Shown piece by piece: positions 27,454 to 38,182 of a stretch of DNA of 39,708 nucleotides; positions within the stretch are counted from its first letter, which is position 1; every line of letters starts with the position of its first letter. A program made the translations under genes and the position numbers. Where the stretch lies: positions 1-39,708 of the forward strand of contig MGTS01000003.1 in the NCBI GenBank assembly GCA_001799565.1, in the 5' to 3' direction. This DNA comes from Elusimicrobia bacterium GWA2_51_34. Its GTDB lineage: Bacteria; Elusimicrobiota; Elusimicrobia; Elusimicrobiales; UBA9959. The notes below the pieces were generated by a model that had not been told where the DNA came from, did not search any database, and saw only the letters and a list, made by a program, of their open reading frames with translations.

Positions 27454-27876
27454 TCACTTTGCCGCGGTGTTCAGTATCAATTCAATCTCTTTTTCCCGGA
27501 ATAATACCGGGTGCTTAATTTCGCCTTTTATATCCCCCTGTCTGAAAACTCCAAGTTCCCCGTGGTTATTTAAGAATGCTTCCAGGAAAAGAGCTTTTGT
27601 TAAAAGTTCGGGCATTATAAGATTAGTGGAGGTTATCCGGAAATTAAGCGGAAAAACCGGATTAATTATTTTTTTAACAGCCACCGGCACCCCGGCCTTG
27701 TTGCGGGCTACCATAAAAAGCATGGCATTCGGCCTGGTGGCCGTCTCAACCAGGTGTTCCGTTATTACCACCTGGCCGCGAAGGTTGAAAGTCAGCCTTA
27801 GAAAATACAGGTAACCAAAGCGCGTCAGCGCGAAAAGCACGGCGCAGCAAAGGGACAGATAGAAAATTTTCTTCAT
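27454..27876 (-). CDS. Hypothetical membrane-anchored protein
   Basis: The 140-residue protein starts with a basic end and one hydrophobic helix (MKKIFYLSLCCAVLFALTR), a signal or anchor. The rest has alternating beta-like segments ('GQVVITEHLVETATRPNAMLFMVARN', 'VAVKKIINPVFPLNFRITSTNLIMP') that could be an extracytoplasmic beta domain. The phrase 'NKAGVPVAVKKI.NPVFPLNFRI' resembles segments in c-type-cytochrome-biogenesis/CcmI-like and transport-associated periplasmic domains, but I cannot assign it. It is divergent from the coiled-coil operon and convergent with the response regulator, whose stop is 7 bp away. Confidence 0.6.
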   Translation of the reverse strand: MKKIFYLSLCCAVLFALTRFGYLYFLRLTFNLRGQVVITEHLVETATRPNAMLFMVARNKAGVPVAVKKIINPVFPLNFRITSTNLIMPELLTKALFLEAFLNNHGELGVFRQGDIKGEIKHPVLFREKEIELILNTAAK

Positions 27877-28253: not shown

Positions 28254-31200
28254 ATGGCAAATGAATACGGCGAACTTGAACAACTTGTAAACGATGTTAC
28301 CAGCCTTGACACGGCCCGCATGACGCTGCGCTGGGCGCTTGAGCGCCTGAATTCTATTGAGAAAGAGAGAGCGGACCTTAAAAAAAACCTCGCGTTGACT
28401 GAAGAAACCTCAAAGCAGCTGCAGGCTAAGCTGGGCACGCTTGAAGATTCTTTCAAGAGCCGTACAAAATCCCTGAGTGAAAAGGAGGGATTCTACACCA
28501 AGCTTGAAGCCACCATGTCGCTTCTGGGCAGCGGGAAACTGGACATACAGCAGCTTTTGAAAAAAGAGGCCCGCCTGGATCAGTTGCGCCGTAGCTTGGA
28601 AGACGAGTATCAGGATAAATTTGAGCAGCTTGACCGTAATCAGCGCTTCGTGATAGAACGCTGGAACGCGCGTCTGCTTGAGGTGGAAAGCCAGTACGCG
28701 GCCAAACTTGGCGAGTCGCAAAAAAAATATGATACTCTGCGCTCAGACCTTGAAAACGACCACCAGGGGCGGCTTTTGGCGCTTCAAAAGAGTTTTAGCG
28801 CCCGCGAAAATGAGCTGACGGGAAGGATAAACCTGCTTGAAACCTCGGTGAAGGCGGATGAGCATCGTCTTGAAGACAGGAAAAGAGAACTTGAAACTGA
28901 ATTTCTGGCTAAAAAGCGGGAAGTGGATGAAAATTACGGAAAGCTCAGGAACATGCTTGAGCAGGGTCTGGAAGAAAGACTCCGCGCCATGGATTCCGAC
29001 CACGGCGAGCAGGTTAAACGCCTTGAACTTTCCTGGAAGGCGGAGCGCGGCCGCCTTATGGAAGAGCAGCGCGTGCGCGAAGAGCAGTTCGCCTCGGCCC
29101 AGGACCGCATAAAGGAAGTTGAAAATTTGCTGGCTTCGCAGCAGGAAAGCCACCACGGCGAGCTGATAAAGATAATAAACGAAAAAGAGGCGGCTTTCCG
29201 TTTCAAGCTGGAAGCCCTTGAAAAGGAAAAAAAGGCCTACTCCCTGACAGTCGCCAAAATGCAGGAACAGATCGGGGCAAAAGAGTCGCAGTGGGCCCAG
29301 GAAAGGGAAAAATTGAACGCGGAATTAAGCCAGCGGATTTCCCTTAATGACTCATCCGTCCGGGAACGCGCGGCTGCGCTTGAAAAGGAGTATGCCGCCA
29401 AAAAAGCGGAGCTTGACAAGGTGGTGGCCGCCGCCAGGCAGGAATTTGAGGAGCAGTTCCAGTCCAGGCTGGCGTTTGAGCGATTGGCCATGGAGGAAGA
29501 GAAAAACAGGACTAAAAACTCGTTATTGTTCGGGGAGGCGGCGCTTAAGAAAGCTGATGAGAAGATAAAAGAACTGGAAGCTGCGTTTTCCGCTTCAAAA
29601 AGCGAACATCACAGAGAGCTAATGGACAAACTGGCCGCAGGTGAGGCGGCTTTCAGGGAAAAAATGGCGCAGTTTGAAGAGGAAAAACAGGCTTATAGCC
29701 TGACTATAGAAAAGCTTGCGGAGGAACTAAGAGCGAAAGAAAATATGCTGCTGGCGGAAAAAGAGCAATTTTCAAAACAGGCAACTGATAAGGCGTCCGC
29801 TTACCAGGCGCAGCTTTCTGCGAAGGAAGGTGTTTTTGAGTTTGAACGAATGGCTTTTGAGAAAAAGATCTCGGTGTTAAGAGGCGAGATATCCGACAAA
29901 GAGAAAGCGCTTGTGCTGGAGCGTGAGAATCTTTCAAACGCGCTGGCTAAAGTGTCCGCCGAAGCCAAAACCATGGCTGAAAAGCGGATGGCAGGCATAC
30001 TCGCGGAATATGAAAAGCGCAAAACCGGGCTTGAGCGGGAATTTGAGATTAAATTCGCAGACCGGGTGAAGGCTCTTGAATTTGAGAAAGCGCGCGCCGG
30101 CGAAGCGGTAGCGTTAAAAGAAGGCCAGCTCAAGGGCGCCTATGAAAAGATCAAAGCTCTTGAAAGCGGGATAGAGGCGTTAAAAGCTGAATATTCAAAT
30201 GAGAAAGCTGAACTGTCAAAGGCGCACGAAGAGAAGCTTAAAGCCCAGGCGGCGGAGTTTGATATAGCGCGCGCCGATTATGCCGAAGAATCGTCTTTAA
30301 AAGAAGCCGCTTTAAGAGAACGTCTTGAGGAATTAAGTGTTTATGTCTCCGACAAAGAGCAGGCCCTTGTGATGGAGCGGGAGAACCTTTCAAACGTGCT
30401 TGCTAAAGTGTCAGCTGAAGCCCGTACCATGGCGGAAGAGCGCGTGGCGGGCATACGCGCGGAGTACGAATTCAAGAAGGCGGAGCTAGAAGCGGAGTAT
30501 CGTGAACGCGGCGCTAAAGCCGACGCGGGAATCCAAAAACTAAAAAAAGAAATTTATAAAGACTGCGGCCGGGAACAGGAAGTTATGGAAGCTGAAAAAG
30601 CCCGGATTGAAAGTGTGCTGAAGCAAAGAGAGCGGGAATATCTGGAGAAAGTAAAGCAGGTGGATAAGCAAAAAGAGGATTTGGCCGGTAAAGAAGAAGA
30701 GCTGCGGGTAAAATACGAAGAGATGTTCCACGACCGCGTGGTGGAGCACGAGGGGGATCTGAAGGTTTTAAGGGAAGGCTTCGGAAAAGAGCGGGCGCAG
30801 TTTCGCGCGGAGATAACCGCTCGGGAAGAATCGGTAAGGCTTATGGGATTAGAGCTGGATGCCGTGAAAACCGGCGCAGTTCAGGCTAAAGCGGGGTTCG
30901 AGGCGGCGTTCTATGCCGCTATTTCGGAGGCCGAAAGCGATAAAGAAACCATGCGTAAGGAATTTGCCGGCCGAAAGGTGAAATTGGAATCGGGTCTGGC
31001 GGAACAATCCCGCAGATTGGAAGCGGAATACTCTTCGCGTAAAGAGGAATTGGAAAAAAAATTAGCGGAGCGCGCCGCGTCATGGCACGCCCGGCAGGAA
31101 GCGGATTATCGCTCCCGTGAAGAAACGTGGAAAATGGAAAGGAGCCGGCTTATGGACGCGGCCGCGTCAAGGGATGAGCAGGTAAAGCTTGCGCAGGCTA

Positions 31201-31754
31201 AAATCCGCGCCATCCAGGGTGAACTGGAGTCGCGATCCAGGGCGCTGGAAAAGGCGGCGGCTGAAAAATACGCCTCCCTTGAGCGCGAATTTGACAACTT
31301 TAAGGCGACGCGCATCAGGGAACTGGAAGAGTCCTGGGCCAGGCAACGCGATGCTTTTGCGAAGGAACTGGCTGCTCGGGACGCCCTGGTGCAGCAGATC
31401 TCCGAGGAAATGGTTTCCCTGCGCGAGGGGCTGGCGCAATCAGCGGCACAAAAGGCCCAGGATGCCGAAGAAGTGATCCAGCTCAGAGCGGCAAATGGGA
31501 AGTGGCGGGAAAAATGCGGCAAGCTGGAGAAAGGGATAGAGCGTATGCAGGAGGAGGCCAGGCGGGAAAAAGAAGAACGGAAAAAGGACACGGAGAAAAG
31601 AATTCTCGCGCTAAAGGACGAATGGGAGCATGAAAAAGCGGGCCAAATATTGTATTATCAAGAGAAGATGGATAAACTGGTGGAGGCGTGCGAGAAATAC
31701 AGTAAGGAGCTTGACGCAAGGGAAGAGGCCCTCCGCCGCGGAGAAAAAGCCTAG
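28254..31754 (+). CDS. Giant coiled-coil protein 1 (1166 residues)
   Basis: The start at ATG 28254 has AAAGGA upstream. Apart from the first 45 or so residues (MANEYGELEQLVNDVTSLDTA) the whole protein is one charged, heptad-patterned coiled coil rich in Glu, Lys, Ala and Leu. There is no membrane segment, no Walker motif and no other domain, so it is not an SMC protein. At least two internal duplications are visible: the LERENLSNALAKVSAEAKTM segment at 29924-30014 recurs at 30382-30471, and the HHGELIKIINEKEAAFR segment has a second version (HHRELMDKLAAGEAAFR). The C-terminus ACEKYSKELDAREEALRRGEK resembles that of coiled-coil protein 2. I infer a filament or scaffold protein; it is unassigned to a family. 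Confidence 0.85.
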   Translation: MANEYGELEQLVNDVTSLDTARMTLRWALERLNSIEKERADLKKNLALTEETSKQLQAKLGTLEDSFKSRTKSLSEKEGFYTKLEATMSLLGSGKLDIQQLLKKEARLDQLRRSLEDEYQDKFEQLDRNQRFVIERWNARLLEVESQYAAKLGESQKKYDTLRSDLENDHQGRLLALQKSFSARENELTGRINLLETSVKADEHRLEDRKRELETEFLAKKREVDENYGKLRNMLEQGLEERLRAMDSDHGEQVKRLELSWKAERGRLMEEQRVREEQFASAQDRIKEVENLLASQQESHHGELIKIINEKEAAFRFKLEALEKEKKAYSLTVAKMQEQIGAKESQWAQEREKLNAELSQRISLNDSSVRERAAALEKEYAAKKAELDKVVAAARQEFEEQFQSRLAFERLAMEEEKNRTKNSLLFGEAALKKADEKIKELEAAFSASKSEHHRELMDKLAAGEAAFREKMAQFEEEKQAYSLTIEKLAEELRAKENMLLAEKEQFSKQATDKASAYQAQLSAKEGVFEFERMAFEKKISVLRGEISDKEKALVLERENLSNALAKVSAEAKTMAEKRMAGILAEYEKRKTGLEREFEIKFADRVKALEFEKARAGEAVALKEGQLKGAYEKIKALESGIEALKAEYSNEKAELSKAHEEKLKAQAAEFDIARADYAEESSLKEAALRERLEELSVYVSDKEQALVMERENLSNVLAKVSAEARTMAEERVAGIRAEYEFKKAELEAEYRERGAKADAGIQKLKKEIYKDCGREQEVMEAEKARIESVLKQREREYLEKVKQVDKQKEDLAGKEEELRVKYEEMFHDRVVEHEGDLKVLREGFGKERAQFRAEITAREESVRLMGLELDAVKTGAVQAKAGFEAAFYAAISEAESDKETMRKEFAGRKVKLESGLAEQSRRLEAEYSSRKEELEKKLAERAASWHARQEADYRSREETWKMERSRLMDAAASRDEQVKLAQAKIRAIQGELESRSRALEKAAAEKYASLEREFDNFKATRIRELEESWARQRDAFAKELAARDALVQQISEEMVSLREGLAQSAAQKAQDAEEVIQLRAANGKWREKCGKLEKGIERMQEEARREKEERKKDTEKRILALKDEWEHEKAGQILYYQEKMDKLVEACEKYSKELDAREEALRRGEKA

Positions 31755-31775
31755 CCTGTGCGCTGTGCCCCGGCC

Positions 31776-31790
31776 TCCGCCTTGGGCGGA
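31776..31790. repeat. TCCGCC/GGCGGA palindrome
   Basis: TCCGCC-TTG-GGCGGA lies in the 133-bp gap between coiled-coil genes 1 and 2. It is another half-unit of the palindromic element seen in tRNA-Ser and tsaE. Confidence 0.65.
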
Positions 31791-31887
31791 AGCGGGACTG
31801 TTCCGTACCCAGCCTGGGGCCGCAAGTCAGCCTGGTAACGGCTGCTTATCCAATCAACCTGTCAGACATCCATGGTAAAGGGGATCT

Positions 31888-32961
31888 ATGTCCAAAACAA
31901 GTGAAGATTTGAAAGAACTCATTCATTCAATGAAGCAGACGGCGGGTTCTAAAAAAAACCTAACCGTTCCCTCACGAAGAAAATGGGACTTGCTGAGCCT
32001 TATTCTGGTTCCCATCTGCATCGGCTCTGTGGGCGGTGTAGCGGGTTTCTTGCTGTCGGGAAAAGATTTAATGCTTCTACTCCCGGCCGTGGTCCTGTCT
32101 TCGGTAGCAGCTTTTCTGCTGATGTTTTTCTGGAGAAAGCTGGGCATGGGATACGGGGAGTCGGACGTGATGCTTGAACTGCTTAAAAGACGGACCGTGG
32201 AAATGGAAAGGGACCGTTTTATCAAGGAGCTTGAGGAAGCGCACAGGCTGTTGCAGGCGTCCTCTGATAAACAGAGACTGTCGCAGGACGAACTGATCAG
32301 GGAAAGAGCGGGCCGGGACGAGGCTATTGCGGAACGCGAACAAAAAAATAAGCTGAAATACGAGTTTGAAAAGGAAAAAATCATCGCTTTGCTTAAGAAC
32401 GCTGAGCAAAAAAATATAGATCTGGAACAAAAGATGGCGGAGCAGGAGATATCCTGGGCCCGGAAATTTGAAGGATTTGAAACACATTTAAGAGAGGGAA
32501 CGCTTAAGGACCTTGAGGCCCAGTATGACAAAAGCAGAACTGAAATTGTGCAGGAGCACTATGCGAAAATAGACTCCTTGAAAAGGGAGGGAGCGGAAAA
32601 ACAAAGGACTCTGGAGGAAACTTTTAAAGCGGAGACAAGAACCCGCGACATGAATGTTGAGGAACTGAACCGCAAGATATCGGAACTCCAGAACGCGGCG
32701 GATGTTAAAGCTATATCGGGCGCAAATAAGCTTACCGAGCAGATGGAGAAAATGAGGAAACTTTACGAGGCTGAGAAAGCGAGCCTGGTTGAAAAGCTCT
32801 ACGAACAGGAGAAGCAATTCCAGGCCAAGCTAGCCGCGCATGGAGAACAGCTTAACTCCCAGAAAATCCAGATAATTTCCGCGTGTGAAGCCTTTGTCAC
32901 GGAGCTGGAATCCAGGGAAAAAGAGCTTGAGAAAAAAGAGAAAAAAATAGCCGGAAGGTAA
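31888..32961 (+). CDS. Membrane-anchored coiled-coil protein 2
   Basis: The 357-residue protein starts SKTSEDLKELIHSMKQTAG (a motif shared with coiled-coil protein 3) and a basic stretch. Two membrane helices follow (about 33-57 and 61-83, with 'VGGVAGFLLSG' between), then a long coiled coil (about 105-350). Both ends face the cytoplasm if the two helices form a hairpin. The C-terminus 'ISACEAFVTELESREKELEKKEKK' matches the end of coiled-coil protein 1. It could tether a protein-1 filament to the membrane; this is inference from the shared ends. AAAGGGGA precedes the start. Confidence 0.8.
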   Translation: MSKTSEDLKELIHSMKQTAGSKKNLTVPSRRKWDLLSLILVPICIGSVGGVAGFLLSGKDLMLLLPAVVLSSVAAFLLMFFWRKLGMGYGESDVMLELLKRRTVEMERDRFIKELEEAHRLLQASSDKQRLSQDELIRERAGRDEAIAEREQKNKLKYEFEKEKIIALLKNAEQKNIDLEQKMAEQEISWARKFEGFETHLREGTLKDLEAQYDKSRTEIVQEHYAKIDSLKREGAEKQRTLEETFKAETRTRDMNVEELNRKISELQNAADVKAISGANKLTEQMEKMRKLYEAEKASLVEKLYEQEKQFQAKLAAHGEQLNSQKIQIISACEAFVTELESREKELEKKEKKIAGR

Positions 32962-32976
32962 TGCGGGCATTAAGAC

Positions 32977-33399
32977 ATGGGACATGCGTCTGAGGAATTG
33001 AGACAGATCCTGGAAAAGATGAAAAGGGAGCTCCTCCCTGCCGGAGCTCAGTCTTCAGGCGCGGCGGTTAAGACAGGCCGGGAAACTGCGGGAGATGGTG
33101 GGGGGGCGAAAGTTCTGGAGCGCGGTAAAGGGGCCGTTCCCCACGCGGGTGATAAAGCGGTCCCGCGGGGAGCCGGGCGGAACATGGCTGCGAAGGCCGG
33201 GTCCGCCGCTGCAGCGCCGGCGGAAAAGGCCTCCGAAAAGCAGGAACTTATAGCCAGATACGAAAGTATGCTCCGCCGTAAAGAAGCGGAGCACGAAAAA
33301 GAAATAAGAATATTACGCGGGGAATTTGAACAGGAGAGGCGGCTGCTCTGGGGGGAAATAGACGCGTTGGAGAAGCGGACACAGTCAGGGGAGAAATAG
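32977..33399 (+). CDS. Small coiled-coil protein 3
   Basis: The 140-residue protein has an N-terminal amphipathic helix HASEELRQILEKMKREL, like the start of protein 2 (SEDLKELIHSMKQ). A low-complexity Gly/Ala/Lys linker (about 22-82) and a C-terminal coiled coil 'KQELIARYESMLRRKEAEHEKEIRILRGEFEQERRLLWGEIDAL' follow. It begins 15 bp after protein 2, so it is in the same transcript. The TAG stop is already part of the left arm of hairpin 16. Function is unknown; probably an accessory to the two larger coiled coils. Confidence 0.72.
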   Translation: MGHASEELRQILEKMKRELLPAGAQSSGAAVKTGRETAGDGGGAKVLERGKGAVPHAGDKAVPRGAGRNMAAKAGSAAAAPAEKASEKQELIARYESMLRRKEAEHEKEIRILRGEFEQERRLLWGEIDALEKRTQSGEK

Positions 33400-33486: not shown

Positions 33487-34551
33487 ATGCTTTCCACAGT
33501 CCTATCTGTCAGGCAGACAATCAATCCATTTTTGAAGCTAGCCGCCATCCAGGTTTCCCAGACGCTGGAAATGAAGGAGCCTGATTACGAATCGCTCGTT
33601 TCCAGAACAGAAAGGAATATCTGGTTCATAAAATTGTCCCGTTTCAGGCACGGACTTCCGGTAATCCGGCGTATTCCCTGGCCGCACACGCGCCTGGCGT
33701 CGGTATATTTTCAGGAGACGGAACACGTTTCGTCAAACACCGGTCTTCTTGCCTCCTTTTTAGGCGAACATCATAAGATTTTAGGCTGGATTCGCGAGTT
33801 GGGCCGTGGGAATTTTGAGCGCTATTTTCTGAATCCGGCAGGGCAAGAGGATCCCGTCCGCATCGTTAAAGCCCTGGGGATTACTTCTCGACGCGTAAAA
33901 ACCATACAGGATTTTATGAAGTCCTTTTCTTTTTACGGGGAGGAGAGCGCCGCGCGCACGTCTCCGCCGGTTCAGGGAGGGTATCCGGTGGCGCGCGTTG
34001 AAATAGACCGAGGTAAACCCTGGCTTTCCTGGTTGATCCCCCATTACGCGAAGGGAAAATATCACATCAATTACGAGGCGTTGAAAATTTTCAGGCGTGA
34101 TGGGAAATTTACCAGGGAAGAATGGCGCGATATCAGCGGTCTTTTAATCCAGCTGGAGAAAATCAACCGGAAGCAAACCGCTATGGCAGCGGTTTTGGAA
34201 TTTATTCTGAGGTTCCATAAAGTCTGGTTCCTGCGCGGACCGTTGAAAGAATTAAAGCCCGTTACCCAGCGTCTGGCTGCCGGGCGGCTGGCACTTGCGC
34301 CCAGCACTCTTTCCCGTTTGTGCCGGAACCGCACTCTTATAACCCCCTGGGGGGAGGAGACGCGGCTGGAACAGTTTTTTCCTTCCAGAAAAACATGGCT
34401 TTTCAACCGCTTAAGGCGGCTGATAGTAAAGCGGCCTGATATAAGCTCCGCCCTGATCCAGAAAGAACTTGCAGACCGCTTTAAAGCAGATGTTTCGCGA
34501 AGACTGATCAACCTCTATCGGCGCCAGATCAATTTGGAGAAAAAAATATGA
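33487..34551 (+). CDS. Divergent RNA polymerase sigma-54 factor (RpoN-like)
   Basis: This 354-residue protein can be followed along sigma-54 from end to end, though it is shorter than the usual 430-500. Residues 8-29 (VRQTINPFLKLAAIQVSQTLEM) parallel region I (Q..MTP.L..AI..L..STLEL). Residues 76-145 parallel the core with its 'LLE.L......A..I...LD..GYL' helices. Residues 220-270 (LEKINRKQTAMAAVLEF, FLRGPLKELKPVT) match 'SIEQR..TL..V...I...FF..GP..LKPL'. Residues 268-298 (LALAPSTLSRL, LITPWGE, LEQFF) match the 'LGLHESTVSR...NKYV.TPRG...LK.FF' helix-turn-helix. The RpoN box ARRTVAKYR is replaced by SRRLINLYR at 337-345. The acidic region II seems absent. Its last 4 bp overlap the histidine kinase gene. 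There is no obvious ribosome site. Confidence 0.85.
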   Translation: MLSTVLSVRQTINPFLKLAAIQVSQTLEMKEPDYESLVSRTERNIWFIKLSRFRHGLPVIRRIPWPHTRLASVYFQETEHVSSNTGLLASFLGEHHKILGWIRELGRGNFERYFLNPAGQEDPVRIVKALGITSRRVKTIQDFMKSFSFYGEESAARTSPPVQGGYPVARVEIDRGKPWLSWLIPHYAKGKYHINYEALKIFRRDGKFTREEWRDISGLLIQLEKINRKQTAMAAVLEFILRFHKVWFLRGPLKELKPVTQRLAAGRLALAPSTLSRLCRNRTLITPWGEETRLEQFFPSRKTWLFNRLRRLIVKRPDISSALIQKELADRFKADVSRRLINLYRRQINLEKKI

Positions 34552-35750
34552 ATACCGAATCGCCAATTTTGCAGGGAGACGAATTGTGCCAAGCTTTGCT
34601 GAATGCCTTGTTTTTAGATTCCCACGCCCGGTTCCTGGCGGCGGACGCGGATTTTAAGATACGAGCCGTAAGTCCGGGCGCGGCGAAGCTGCTTGGTTAT
34701 GTTTGGCAGAAGGAAACATTTCCGACGCTGCAGGATCTGTTTAACGATGGGACCGGCTGGAAAGAGCTTTTGAGTTTGATAAAAAAGAGAGATTCAGTTT
34801 CCGGGCATCATTGCCGTCTGCGTGGAAACAGGAAGGAACTGGTTGACGTTATCCTGGATATAAAGGCTCTGCGCACTACCTGCGCCCGCGCCCCCGCGGC
34901 CGGGCCCGCCGGATTGTTTTCCGCCAGGGGCGGATCCGCCGCTTGCTTGGCGGAGGCGGGTGAAACTCCGGCTCCCCAGCGCGTATTGGGCGGCGTTCAG
35001 GGATATCTGATACATATAGGCGTTAACGCGCCAGCGCCGGAAATGGATTCTGGGCAAGTACAGAAGGTATTAATGCGCATGAACAGGCTGGCCTCTATCG
35101 GCCAGATCACGGCCGCTTTCGTCCACGGGATAAAAACCCCGCTTCATGTCATCAGTTCCATGTCTGAGCTTATGCTGGAAAATAAACTGGAGCCGCAGAT
35201 CCGCGAGGGCATCCAGATGATAGCGCGCAATGCCCAGAAAACCTATCAGACGGTGCAAACTGTTCTGGCATATTCCAAAGATGTGAATACCCATCTGGAA
35301 AAAGTCGCTCTTCACCCGGTGGTCCAGAGCATCTGCGACCTGCTGTCCGGGAACTTTAACGCCCGGCAGGTGGAACTGATATGCACCCTGAACCCCATGT
35401 CTGACGTAATGGCTGACGCTAACCAGATACGCGAGGCTGTCTGCAATATACTTATCAATTCCCTGGACGCTACCGTTTCAGGCGGCCAGGTGACGATTAT
35501 TGCCGGCATGGACGACCGTAAGAAATCCGCTTATATAGAAGTCAAGGATACCGGCGCCGGGATACCCGAAGATGTTCTTCCACGTATTTGCGAGCCTTTT
35601 TTCAGCACCAAGGAGAAGGGGACGGGACTGGGGCTTTATCTGGCCGACCAAATTATGAAAGGTCACGGCGGAAACTTTGCCATAGAAAGCAGGAAAGGCG
35701 TGGGCACTACGGTTACGCTTTCATTCCCCTGTTCTATTGACGGACAGTAA
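34548..35750 (+). CDS. PAS-domain sensor histidine kinase
   Basis: The 400-residue soluble kinase has an N-terminal PAS domain (about 22-160), a HisKA dimerisation helix with phospho-accepting H193 in FVHGIKTPLHVI, and an HATPase domain. ATPase motifs: N-box NILINSLDA (300-308), G1 DTGAGIP (334-340), F-box FFSTK (351-355), G2 GTGLGLYL (358-365). The residue after the histidine is Gly, not the usual Glu, which may alter phosphatase activity. The PAS domain is broken at about residues 112-147 by a low-complexity stretch encoded by palindromic repeat DNA (34905-34960). There is no membrane segment, so it senses a cytoplasmic cue. It is translationally coupled to the sigma-54 gene and followed by an NtrC-type activator, its likely partner. 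Confidence 0.92.
   Translation: MNTESPILQGDELCQALLNALFLDSHARFLAADADFKIRAVSPGAAKLLGYVWQKETFPTLQDLFNDGTGWKELLSLIKKRDSVSGHHCRLRGNRKELVDVILDIKALRTTCARAPAAGPAGLFSARGGSAACLAEAGETPAPQRVLGGVQGYLIHIGVNAPAPEMDSGQVQKVLMRMNRLASIGQITAAFVHGIKTPLHVISSMSELMLENKLEPQIREGIQMIARNAQKTYQTVQTVLAYSKDVNTHLEKVALHPVVQSICDLLSGNFNARQVELICTLNPMSDVMADANQIREAVCNILINSLDATVSGGQVTIIAGMDDRKKSAYIEVKDTGAGIPEDVLPRICEPFFSTKEKGTGLGLYLADQIMKGHGGNFAIESRKGVGTTVTLSFPCSIDGQ
34905..34960. repeat. Palindromic element inside the histidine kinase gene
   Basis: The plus strand begins CCCGCCGGATTGTTT, identical over 15 bp to the palindrome at 7826-7840. It continues with TCCGCC-agg-GGCGGA, TCCGCC...GGCGGA and ends GGCGGG: nested and tandem 6-bp stems. 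The reading frame stays open through it. Confidence 0.8.
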
Positions 35751-35893
35751 AGAGTAAAGCGTAAAGAGTGAAGAGAAAATTGTGGAGGAAATCCCTAAAC
35801 TGGTTTATTAAATCTTCGCGGAAAAATATAAAATAAGTGCCGGTCACTATTAGCTGTTAACTCTTTACTTTTTACTCTTTACGCTTTACTTTA
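35747..35893. repeat. Word-repeat hairpin 17 (AGTAAAG heptamer)
   Basis: The left arm 35747-35776 repeats AGTAAAG, AGTAAAGC, GTAAAGAGTGAAG. The right arm 35861-35893 is the complement (CTCTTTACTTTTTACTCTTT, then ACGCTTTAC). It fills the kinase-activator gap, starts within the kinase stop region and ends 4 bp before the activator start codon. Confidence 0.87.
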
Positions 35894-35896
35894 CAT

Positions 35897-37273
35897 ATGT
35901 CTACTTTCCTTATAATTGACGATGACCCGGATATACGGGCTTCTTTGCGCCTTTTTCTGAAAACTAGGGGACACGAACTTCTGGAAGCGGGTAACGGCGA
36001 TGAGGCTTTAAACATCCTGAAAAAACAGCGCCCTGACGGGGTGCTTCTGGATCTGTTTCTGGGGAAAGAAAGCGGAATGCAGCTTCTGGGCCAGATCAAG
36101 AAAACAGATTCCACCCTCCCCGTGATCATGCTGACCGGCCACTCCGACGTTGCGACCGCGGTGGAAGCCATGAAACTTGGCGCCATGGATTATATAGCCA
36201 AGCCTTTCAAAAATGAGTATCTGCTGCTAGTCCTTCAGAAAGCTGTCAAAGTGAGCGAACTTTTCATGGAGGTAAAGGCGTTAAGACGACAGGTGAAGAA
36301 AAAGACGCAGCCTGCCGGAGTGGTTTTCGGCCCAAGCCCTGCGATAGAAGCGGTTATCAAGCAGGCGCATATAGTAGCGCCTACGGACTTGAGCGTAATT
36401 ATCCAGGGGCCTTCCGGTTCCGGTAAAGAGGTGCTGGCCAGGCTTATTCACGACTTCAGCCGCAGGGCCAGCGGGCCGTTCATCGCCGTGGACTGCGGCA
36501 CACTTCCGGAGGCGCTTGTGGAAAGCGAGCTTTTTGGATTTGAAAAGGGGGCGTTCACCGGCGCGGACCGTAAAAAGCCAGGACACTTTGAAATGGCGTT
36601 CAAGGGAACTTTTTTCCTGGATGAGGTGGGAAATCTGTCCCCGAACGTGCAGGCCAAGCTTTTGAGGGTGCTCCAGGAAAGAAAAATCCGGCATCTTGGC
36701 GGGAAAACAGATATTCAGGTGAACGTCCGGATACTTTCCGCCTCCAATAAAAATCTATCGGAGTTGGTTGAACAAAAAAAGTTTCGTGAAGACCTTTACC
36801 ACCGGTTGAACCAGTTTTCCATAAAACTGCCTTCGCTTTCCCAAAGAAAGGAAGATATTCCCGTGCTGGCGGCCCAGTTCATCCGGGAGGCGAACCGCTC
36901 TTTGCATAAAAAAGTGCAGAGTATTTCCAGGGCGGCGCTGGCCATGCTTGAGGCGCATTCCTGGCCCGGAAACGTGCGGGAATTCCGGAATATAATTTTC
37001 AGGGCGGTCCTTTCGGCAGAAAAAAGCGTTGAGCTTGAACATATTCAACTGGAGCCGTCCACCGTCGCGCATTCAACTGCTCCCATTTCTGCGTCCCCTG
37101 GAAATAGTTCACCTTTAACCGGGCAAACTCTTAAAGAGGCCGTGGCTCCGCTGGAGAAAGAGATGATACAAAAAGCCCTGAAAGAAACAGGGGGAAATAA
37201 AGTCAGAACTGCCAGGCTTCTTGGAATTGACCGCAAAGCTCTCTATTACAAAATACAAAAACATGGACTGTAA
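35897..37273 (+). CDS. Sigma-54-dependent response regulator, NtrC family
   Basis: The 458-residue bacterial enhancer-binding protein has three domains. The receiver (1-120) has D8-D10, phospho-accepting D52 in LLDLFLG, T80 and K102 in AKPF. The AAA+ domain (about 140-375) has Walker A GPSGSGKE (171-178), the sigma-54-contacting loop GAFTGA (218-223), Walker B FFLDEVG (239-245) and the sensor and arginine-finger region 'FREDLYHRLNQFSI'. The C-terminus is a Fis-type helix-turn-helix 'GGNKVRTARLLGIDRKALYYKIQKHGL'. The intact GAFTGA loop means it is built to activate a sigma-54 holoenzyme. The adjacent divergent sigma-54 is the obvious candidate, with the adjacent kinase supplying phosphate. It ends 3 bp from the convergent next gene. 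Confidence 0.95.
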   Translation: MSTFLIIDDDPDIRASLRLFLKTRGHELLEAGNGDEALNILKKQRPDGVLLDLFLGKESGMQLLGQIKKTDSTLPVIMLTGHSDVATAVEAMKLGAMDYIAKPFKNEYLLLVLQKAVKVSELFMEVKALRRQVKKKTQPAGVVFGPSPAIEAVIKQAHIVAPTDLSVIIQGPSGSGKEVLARLIHDFSRRASGPFIAVDCGTLPEALVESELFGFEKGAFTGADRKKPGHFEMAFKGTFFLDEVGNLSPNVQAKLLRVLQERKIRHLGGKTDIQVNVRILSASNKNLSELVEQKKFREDLYHRLNQFSIKLPSLSQRKEDIPVLAAQFIREANRSLHKKVQSISRAALAMLEAHSWPGNVREFRNIIFRAVLSAEKSVELEHIQLEPSTVAHSTAPISASPGNSSPLTGQTLKEAVAPLEKEMIQKALKETGGNKVRTARLLGIDRKALYYKIQKHGL

Positions 37274-37276
37274 GTT

Positions 37277-38182
37277 TTATGTTTTTACCTCAGTTCCATT
37301 GCAGGATTTTATCAGGCGCAGAATTTTCTCCTCAGTCTCCAGAAGTCCGGTTAATTCACCCAGCGAAAGACCCGGTATTTCTGTTTTAGTATGCCATGCT
37401 TCAAGTAGATCATAAAACTGGGCCTTAATTTTCGGGTTCACAATCCCGGCGCCGGAGCTTAAAGCGAAGCTCGAATGTGAAAAGCCAGCGGTTTTTATTT
37501 TACCGGCCCAATATCTGGCCTTTAACCCCACTATAGAGCGGTCCAGTGTGTCTATCTCCGAACTATCCCGGCAAATATCCGCCTCAGGCAAATAAGCCGG
37601 TGGCGGTGGTGAGACAACAGGCGTTTCAAAAGAAGACGCGGAAATAGCGGGTATGGACAGTGTGTCGGCTACTTCTGCTTTATACGCCGCAAGGATTATG
37701 CCGGTTTCAGTTTCAATCATCCGCGCGTTAATTTCACAAATGCCCGCGCCGGTTAAAATGGAACCTGTTATTATGGCGTCAGCGGGTATCAGCCGGCCCG
37801 GTTTGTCCGTCGGGGCCTGGATGAAAGCTCCCGTGGCTGTCAGCCACTGTTCGCGCATAACATCTTTCAGTAAATTCCGTTCCGCGACTTCAACTTCGCC
37901 TAATTTCACTAACTGGGTAATCAGGCGTTCTGAAACAACTCGTCCCTCCGGAGAGAGGTTCTGGTTCGGGAGGGAAAAGGGGATTACCGCGATTCTGGTT
38001 ATCTTATGCGCTTTTGCCGCGCTTGAAAACTTTTTTGCCATTAACTTATAGTTGTCAGCGCAGACCGCCTCTCCCGGATAAATTATCATAAACAAAGCGG
38101 TTAGAATAAACATTGTCTCCCTTGCGGAGAGCAGGTTTTTTCTCCCTTTGTGTGCGTAAGGAATTGATATTTTATCTCTCAT
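37277..38182 (-). CDS. Secreted FlgO/CsgG-like envelope protein
   Basis: I choose ATG 38182, which has AAGGAAG upstream; an in-frame TTG at 38200 is possible. The 301 residues have an N-terminal signal sequence (hydrophobic about 23-36, likely cut after VCA near 42). The domain 'RIAVIPFSLPNQNLSPEGRVVSERLITQLVKLGEVEVAERNLLKDVMREQ' follows, then 'IPADAIITGSI...INARMIETETGIILAAY'. That pattern (VIPF, long helix, V.R..L..V..EQ, AD.I..G) is the nucleotide-free FlgO/CsgG/DUF799 envelope fold. A proline-rich linker (VVSPPPPAYLP) and a helical C-terminus follow. It is not a lipoprotein by sequence. Members help assemble outer-membrane structures; the substrate is unknown here. Confidence 0.75.
   Translation of the reverse strand: MRDKISIPYAHKGRKNLLSARETMFILTALFMIIYPGEAVCADNYKLMAKKFSSAAKAHKITRIAVIPFSLPNQNLSPEGRVVSERLITQLVKLGEVEVAERNLLKDVMREQWLTATGAFIQAPTDKPGRLIPADAIITGSILTGAGICEINARMIETETGIILAAYKAEVADTLSIPAISASSFETPVVSPPPPAYLPEADICRDSSEIDTLDRSIVGLKARYWAGKIKTAGFSHSSFALSSGAGIVNPKIKAQFYDLLEAWHTKTEIPGLSLGELTGLLETEEKILRLIKSCNGTEVKT

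Follow-up and report, generated by a model that had tools for sequence, protein, structure and literature searches.

Crescentin and other bacterial coiled-coil filament proteins are long, proline-poor coiled coils. In Myxococcus xanthus the cytoplasmic protein FrzS, also a long coiled coil, has a defined cell location and is needed for exopolysaccharide production (PMC3158785), and in Gluconacetobacter a cytoskeletal structure under the inner membrane, the cortical belt, has been proposed to align cellulose synthase complexes (PMC7811197). Here a locus from Elusimicrobia bacterium GWA2_51_34 is compared with these systems. It lies in a stretch of 39,708 nt (contig MGTS01000003.1, assembly GCA_001799565.1), which as a whole is termed the window, and comprises three consecutive genes, P1, P2 and P3, encoding a giant coiled-coil protein, a coil with a predicted membrane anchor and a small coil. 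Judged by sequence, P1 is almost wholly helical, grows by internal duplication, carries a class-wide head and has a tail whose type goes with the partner gene P2. We put at about one half the probability that P1-P2-P3 form a cytoplasmic coiled-coil scaffold, tethered to the inner membrane and tail-matched to its partners, that usually serves exopolysaccharide export.

The window's genome is designated G000; G001 and G002 belong to the same genus, and f1 is the family of all three. Two further genes are found near P1 in relatives: B encodes a coil, usually of 230-280 residues and with a conserved start, and C a protein of about 200 residues with a membrane hairpin. The coordinates, lengths and strand of the three coil proteins given in a first-pass annotation of the window are correct; 133 bases separate P1 from P2, and 15 bases separate P2 from P3.

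28254-31754, + strand: P1, giant coiled-coil protein of 1166 residues; intact open frame; homologues in 84 of 340 genomes of the phylum
28254-28604, + strand: conserved N-terminal head of P1, residues 1-117, with a hinge at 89-94; many far matches cover profile positions 12-117 alone, and the helix break is modelled
29895-30470, + strand: internal duplication in P1, offset 152 residues, about residues 548-739, from self-comparison
31254-31754, + strand: C-terminal tail of P1, of the P2-matched type, from about residue 1001; ACE..ELDARE motif at 31686-31724
31888-32961, + strand: P2, predicted membrane-anchored coil of 357 residues; intact open frame; homologues in 4 of 340 genomes, always next after P1
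31900-31935, + strand: N-terminal motif of P2, SEDLKELIHSMK; best P2 x P3 window pair, with a related start in 4/4 P2 sequences
31975-32139, + strand: predicted two-helix membrane anchor of P2; modelled helices 30-56 and 61-84, with hydropathy peaks
32881-32919, + strand: tail motif of P2, ACEAFVTELESRE; P2 residues 331-352 are identical in G000 and G001, whole P2 73% identical
32977-33399, + strand: P3, small coil of 140 residues; intact open frame
32989-33024, + strand: N-terminal motif of P3, SEELRQILEKMK; pairs with the P2 start and, scored by the C-family motif, is 6th among 11,325 N-terminal windows

The description of P1 as a nearly unbroken coil is borne out. Proline is absent from all 1166 residues, and residues 1-300 are modelled by AlphaFold2 as helices at 2-88 and 95-299 with a break at 89-94 (mean predicted local distance difference test, pLDDT, 83). 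The strongest hydrophobic period is about 3.61 residues per turn in all three thirds of the protein, rather than the classical 3.5. The duplication offset of 152 residues recurs, with its multiples 304, 456 and 608, in the longer P1 of G001 (1965 residues), and internal duplications account in part for the range of complete P1 lengths in f1, from about 900 to 2957 residues. P1 resembles crescentin-type filaments as a long proline-poor coiled coil, but differs in its own conserved head, the period near 3.61, a swappable tail and a partner with a predicted membrane anchor.

The head profile (A5, which includes the window sequence itself, and from which row L129 was removed owing to a frame error) matches at E 1e-8 in the 84 genomes listed above, the window's included: 51 of the 59 f1 genomes and 33 in families f9, f11, f13, f14 and f15. 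Many matches outside f1 are confined to the first ~117 residues, and whole P1 matched none of 42 non-f1 genomes within a set of 101 relatives. Beyond Elusimicrobiota the search consisted of one contig scan with a single protein, sensitive to close relatives only. On these matches P1 is a coiled-coil family of Elusimicrobiota, as far as searched. Two variants should be mentioned. In two f14 genomes (L143, L145) the P1 end is unlike a coil, with 17-24 prolines, and the next protein is a borderline CBM48 match. P1 of L125 (G035) has its N-terminal part in another frame than the remainder, which suggests a frameshift or an assembly error.

P2 is modelled as a helix at residues 4-19, a hairpin at 30-56/61-84 and long helices at 91-203 and 206-356 (mean pLDDT 71); the anchor region itself is modelled at low confidence, pLDDT 50-60. 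Kyte-Doolittle peaks at 38-56 and 63-81 agree with the modelled hairpin, and the two-helix membrane anchor proposed earlier is supported by both. P2 occurs in G000, G001, G170 (f9) and G179 (f13), each time as the next gene after P1. Between G000 and G001, 24/27 of residues 331-357 are identical and 9/12 codon differences are synonymous. A strong P3 homologue is found in G001 only, among the 101 relatives searched, so that a clear P3 is present in G000 and G001; a marginal match in G044 has internal stops.

The first-pass annotation had pointed to a common tail of P1 and P2 and a common start of P2 and P3, and both similarities stand out in scans of all window pairs. With ungapped 24-residue windows, P1 against P2 from residue 111 on (its coil part), P1 1142-1165 and P2 329-352, i.e., both C-termini, form the best of 256,032 pairs (z 6.3). 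With ungapped 16-residue windows the best of ~43,000 P2 x P3 pairs is formed by residues 1-16 of each protein, both N-termini (z 5.3). The start motif is weak when taken alone: a position-specific scoring matrix of 17 C-family starts ranks P3 6th and P2 39th among the 11,325 N-terminal windows. A regular expression for the tail, composed after the motif had been seen, has 9 matches among 5,895 open frames, every one of them in P1 or P2.

Distant families carry the tail motif on their P1 and P2 as well, and among the genomes checked P1 has the P2-type tail only if P2 follows it. When the final 45 residues of P1 are compared with P2 tails, the scores are 56-77 for G000, G001 and G179, 70-82 for G170 and 22-42 for G002, G010, G044, G052 and G053; the null of internal segments has mean 27, sd 5.9 and maximum 47. 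In the three distinct complete P1-P2 pairs the best window lies within both tails (3/3); the P2 tail of G179 is cut by the contig end, its row failed the test, and it is excluded from this count, and L067 and L087, the same contig by its length and identical proteins, are a single entry in the pair counts. These matches argue for the earlier suggestion that the shared ends reflect association of the proteins.

The tail of the window's P1 does not follow its genus. Its last 70 residues score 112 against G170 and 99 against G179, but only 33 against own-genus G002 (null mean 43, sd 17). In 100-residue windows the P1 of G000 is strongly like that of G002 until about residue 750 (scores up to 435), and after about residue 1000 it scores 61-68 against G002, 96-126 against G170 and 78-99 against G179. 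On these scores the window's P1 is a mosaic: up to residue ~750 it is of the genus type, and its last ~160 residues are like the P1 of distant families that encode P2. The profile therefore describes a family-type rod joined to a tail of the f9/f13 type, where P2 also follows P1.

Comparison with other genomes reveals a linkage between P1 and polysaccharide export genes that is new relative to the first-pass annotation and visible only by such comparison. In 18 of the 22 f1 genomes with a complete P1 on the fetched locus the order is P1-B-C-Wza-Wzc. The genes after C encode a Poly_export/SLBB (Wza-like) protein, a Wzz-tyrosine autokinase (Wzc-like) protein that scores above the NCBIfam cut-off for polysaccharide tyrosine autokinases (TIGR01007), and an O-antigen-ligase-like protein. 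These are the same genes as in Wza/Wzc export operons elsewhere; to our knowledge, classical Wza/Wzc operons contain no giant coiled-coil genes. Four genomes deviate: G000 and G001 have P1-P2, G002 has P1-B, and G045 has only P1. The last two carry, in place of the exporter, a methyltransferase gene and a phosphoesterase-type gene (the latter assigned in G002 by sequence reading) after the P1 region.

Family-type Wza is present in 39/59 f1 genomes, 38 of which also have P1; in the 39th, G003, B-C-Wza-Wzc stand behind a coil that starts at the contig end. For the 2x2 table of Wza and P1 in f1 Fisher's p is 0.0014, although incomplete genomes can produce such an association. P1 and Wza are on one contig in 28/38 genomes, in all 28 within 8.6 kb, and on separate contigs in 10. 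Outside f1, 39 loci (L139-L177) cover at least one P1 locus from each of the 33 genomes, with some paralogue loci left out. Wza and/or Wzc are found in 8/39. The order is Wza-Wzc-P1 in 5/6 f14 genomes with P1 (G184, G185, G186, G188, G189), Wzc and B stand beside P1 in f14 G190, and a C-like protein, Wza and Wzc are near P1 in f15 G212 and G213. B or P2 occurs in 16/39. None of P1, B, C, P2, Wza and Wzc turned up in 17 control loci, together 205 kb, that had been selected by sigma-54.

The relation of P2 to B and C was also compared. Over its final 70 residues the P2 family aligns to the B profile at its end (hhalign E 2.6e-6). The C family is marked by a start motif plus a WSENKE-type hairpin; the layout of P2 is similar (hhalign E 0.02), but the C-family profile A2 has no match in G000 or G001, and membership of P2 as a plain C-family protein is not established. 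Because of the alignment to the B profile end, P2 may join a B-like tail to a membrane anchor of the C kind, the likeness to C being architectural only. A general matching of the P1 tail with that of B or C was not seen, with 0/41 and 2/25 matched pairs, respectively, duplicates included.

Searches of Pfam, NCBIfam, PADLOC and PDB sequences gave nothing significant for P1-P3, only a few weak matches, and no Pfam or NCBIfam family covers them. Among PADLOC defence families P1 and P3 have no match, P2 one weak match (E 0.008), and B weak coil matches only. RmuC is defined by its RmuC domain and bactofilin by a beta-helix domain (Pfam). For RmuC no match to P1-P3 was obtained at E up to 1 in Pfam and NCBIfam, nor was there any for bactofilin in these libraries, and the P1 head and P2 models are all helix. 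P1 alone has no PDB match at E 0.01 in a library whose content of crescentin is unchecked, and the head profile finds only weak PDB matches to other proteins, crescentin not among them. The first-pass annotation had suggested a search for distant similarity to these three families. P1 has no receiver domain in Pfam searches, and its N-terminus is helix only, unlike the FrzS layout of an N-terminal (pseudo-)receiver plus coiled coil. No paper on a P1-P2-P3 system was found in the Elusimicrobia/Elusimicrobiota literature covered, in which subscription journals are mostly not included.

P1 is best described as an uncharacterised family and is probably a variant of a known idea, the coiled-coil scaffold for envelope machines. 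FrzS (PMC3158785) and P1 are both long coiled coils tied to exopolysaccharide, FrzS by requirement and P1 by gene context; P1 differs in having dedicated partners instead of a receiver domain and in standing, in relatives, beside the export operon itself. The cortical belt and, presumably, P1 would both be membrane-near cytoskeletal holders of polysaccharide machines, cellulose synthase in the one case and Wza/Wzc in the other; the belt protein is not named in the abstract of PMC7811197.

The proposed scaffold would work as follows. P1 would be located in the cytoplasm and self-associate via its coil, and the matched P1 and P2 tails would either bind alongside one another or dock at a shared site. 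Docking would tie the P1 rod to the inner membrane through the P2 anchor, and the scaffold would thereby fix the position of polysaccharide export complexes. In the window's genus, because the export operon is not adjacent, P1-P2-P3 may act at a distance on other export loci or may have taken a related envelope task. A more elaborate version, which we hold to be rather unlikely, is that of a cytoskeleton-like belt or track of giant rods in Elusimicrobiota, in which interchangeable tails would choose the membrane adaptor (P2 or B/C), one conserved head could thus serve various envelope machines, exopolysaccharide exporters above all, and tail exchange would have re-coupled the rod in the window's genus.

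Several observations weigh against the scaffold for export. In the window's genome no export operon adjoins P1 and family-type Wza is lacking; the best Wza there is a distant one, at E 7.5e-27, whereas family-type proteins score below 1e-90. Family-type Wza is missing from 13/51 P1-bearing f1 genomes, some perhaps via contig ends. Neither Wza nor Wzc is found in 31/39 far loci, several of which are short, and the P1-exporter link is therefore recurrent but not universal. There are often several P1 paralogues within one f15 genome. Further, no tail matching was seen in the P1-B pairs, homology of P2 and C is not established at the E value given above, and weak similarities are inflated by coiled coils.

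A different role, that of a general cytoskeletal or polar organiser for shape, polarity or division, should also be considered. The genes upstream of P1, judged by their sequences, are glmU, prs, rplY and pth, and the exporter would be near P1 only because gene order behind them is conserved. P1 keeps this place where the export operon is absent (G002, G045, G000, G001), and f15 P1 paralogues are found away from Wza/Wzc, two of their loci (L151, L152, each with a paralogue of 576 residues) near oxidase genes, COX1 being identified in L151. However, Wza/Wzc are near P1 in f14 and f15 too, in other orders, and in the 18 f1 genomes with the full order B and C lie between P1 and Wza. On balance a general organiser seems rather unlikely. 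A gene divergent to P1 adjoins it in 26/27 f1 loci that hold the P1 start, the lone exception having <1 kb of sequence upstream of P1.

27454-27876, - strand: Ig_CycH-domain protein of 140 residues, divergent to P1; PF23892, E 1.1e-6; N-terminal hydrophobic segment 4-22

The Ig_CycH protein is a possible part of the system, and a possible periplasmic partner.

The first-pass annotation had proposed a membrane-tethered filament produced under a dedicated sigma-54 cassette, which lies downstream of P3.

33487-37273, + strand: sigma-54-like / histidine kinase / NtrC-type cassette; downstream neighbour, judged to be outside the system; the same cassette is found without P1, B, C and P2 at other loci
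37277-38182, - strand: CsgG/FlgO-like protein, after the cassette

The six genes are consecutive on one strand in G000 and G001, and G000 has no match to the sigma-54 DNA-binding domain other than the window's own (four matches in G001, two in G044, none in G002 or G010). However, among the relatives this six-gene order, and with it the adjacency of cassette and P1, is present in those two genomes only. G002 has P1 and no sigma-54 match, and no cassette of this kind adjoins P1-P2 in G170 or G179 (in G179 the contig stops within P2). Coil genes lacking the cassette in relatives are what the first-pass annotation had itself named as refuting its reading, and for the sigma-54 part this is the outcome. 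Related sigma-54/kinase/NtrC genes stand beside a ribonucleotide reductase gene in f1 (L188-L191, L196, L198, and likewise L193, with at least two of the three cassette genes recovered; the reductase was identified for L188 and assigned at the other loci by the same N-terminal sequence), and P1, B, C and P2 are absent from all of these loci. Sites of the -24/-12 type number 3 in the window against 6.8 expected, with none near P1 and none in the G001 locus, a divergent consensus being possible. The cassette was thus rejected as a part of the system, and a filament under its control is improbable. Since coil-free cassettes are found elsewhere and no promoter near P1 rises above chance, the adjacency in G000 and G001 has the look of a local coincidence, or else of a recent coupling. 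The sigma-54-like protein itself (33487-34551, 354 residues) is short and divergent, and only its DNA-binding domain scores in Pfam (E 4e-8). Its RpoN-box region is altered, reading SRRLINLYR (SRRSVNLYR-like in relatives, which are found in 46/101 genomes). A comparative-genomics study ties sigma-54 to cell-exterior genes (PMC3162934), and a regulatory link in G000 is therefore not absurd, yet it is unsupported here.

A further possibility, that the coils regulate the Wzc-type tyrosine autokinase as spacers or sequestering agents and are not a structural scaffold, is very doubtful: the Wzc-like protein is indeed encoded just downstream of the coils in f1, but a simple regulator is unlikely to be built as a rod of ~900-2957 residues that lengthens by duplication, and the window's genus keeps P1 without family-type Wza/Wzc.

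Taken by its anatomy and gene context, P1 probably serves the cell surface as an internal scaffold of a kind not yet described. The phylum Elusimicrobiota has very few cultured members, and outside a few models little is known of how bacteria place their polysaccharide export machines. The P1 family, found beside Wza/Wzc, with lengths of ~900-3000 residues and a tail that changes with the partner, is a concrete candidate for such a placement system.

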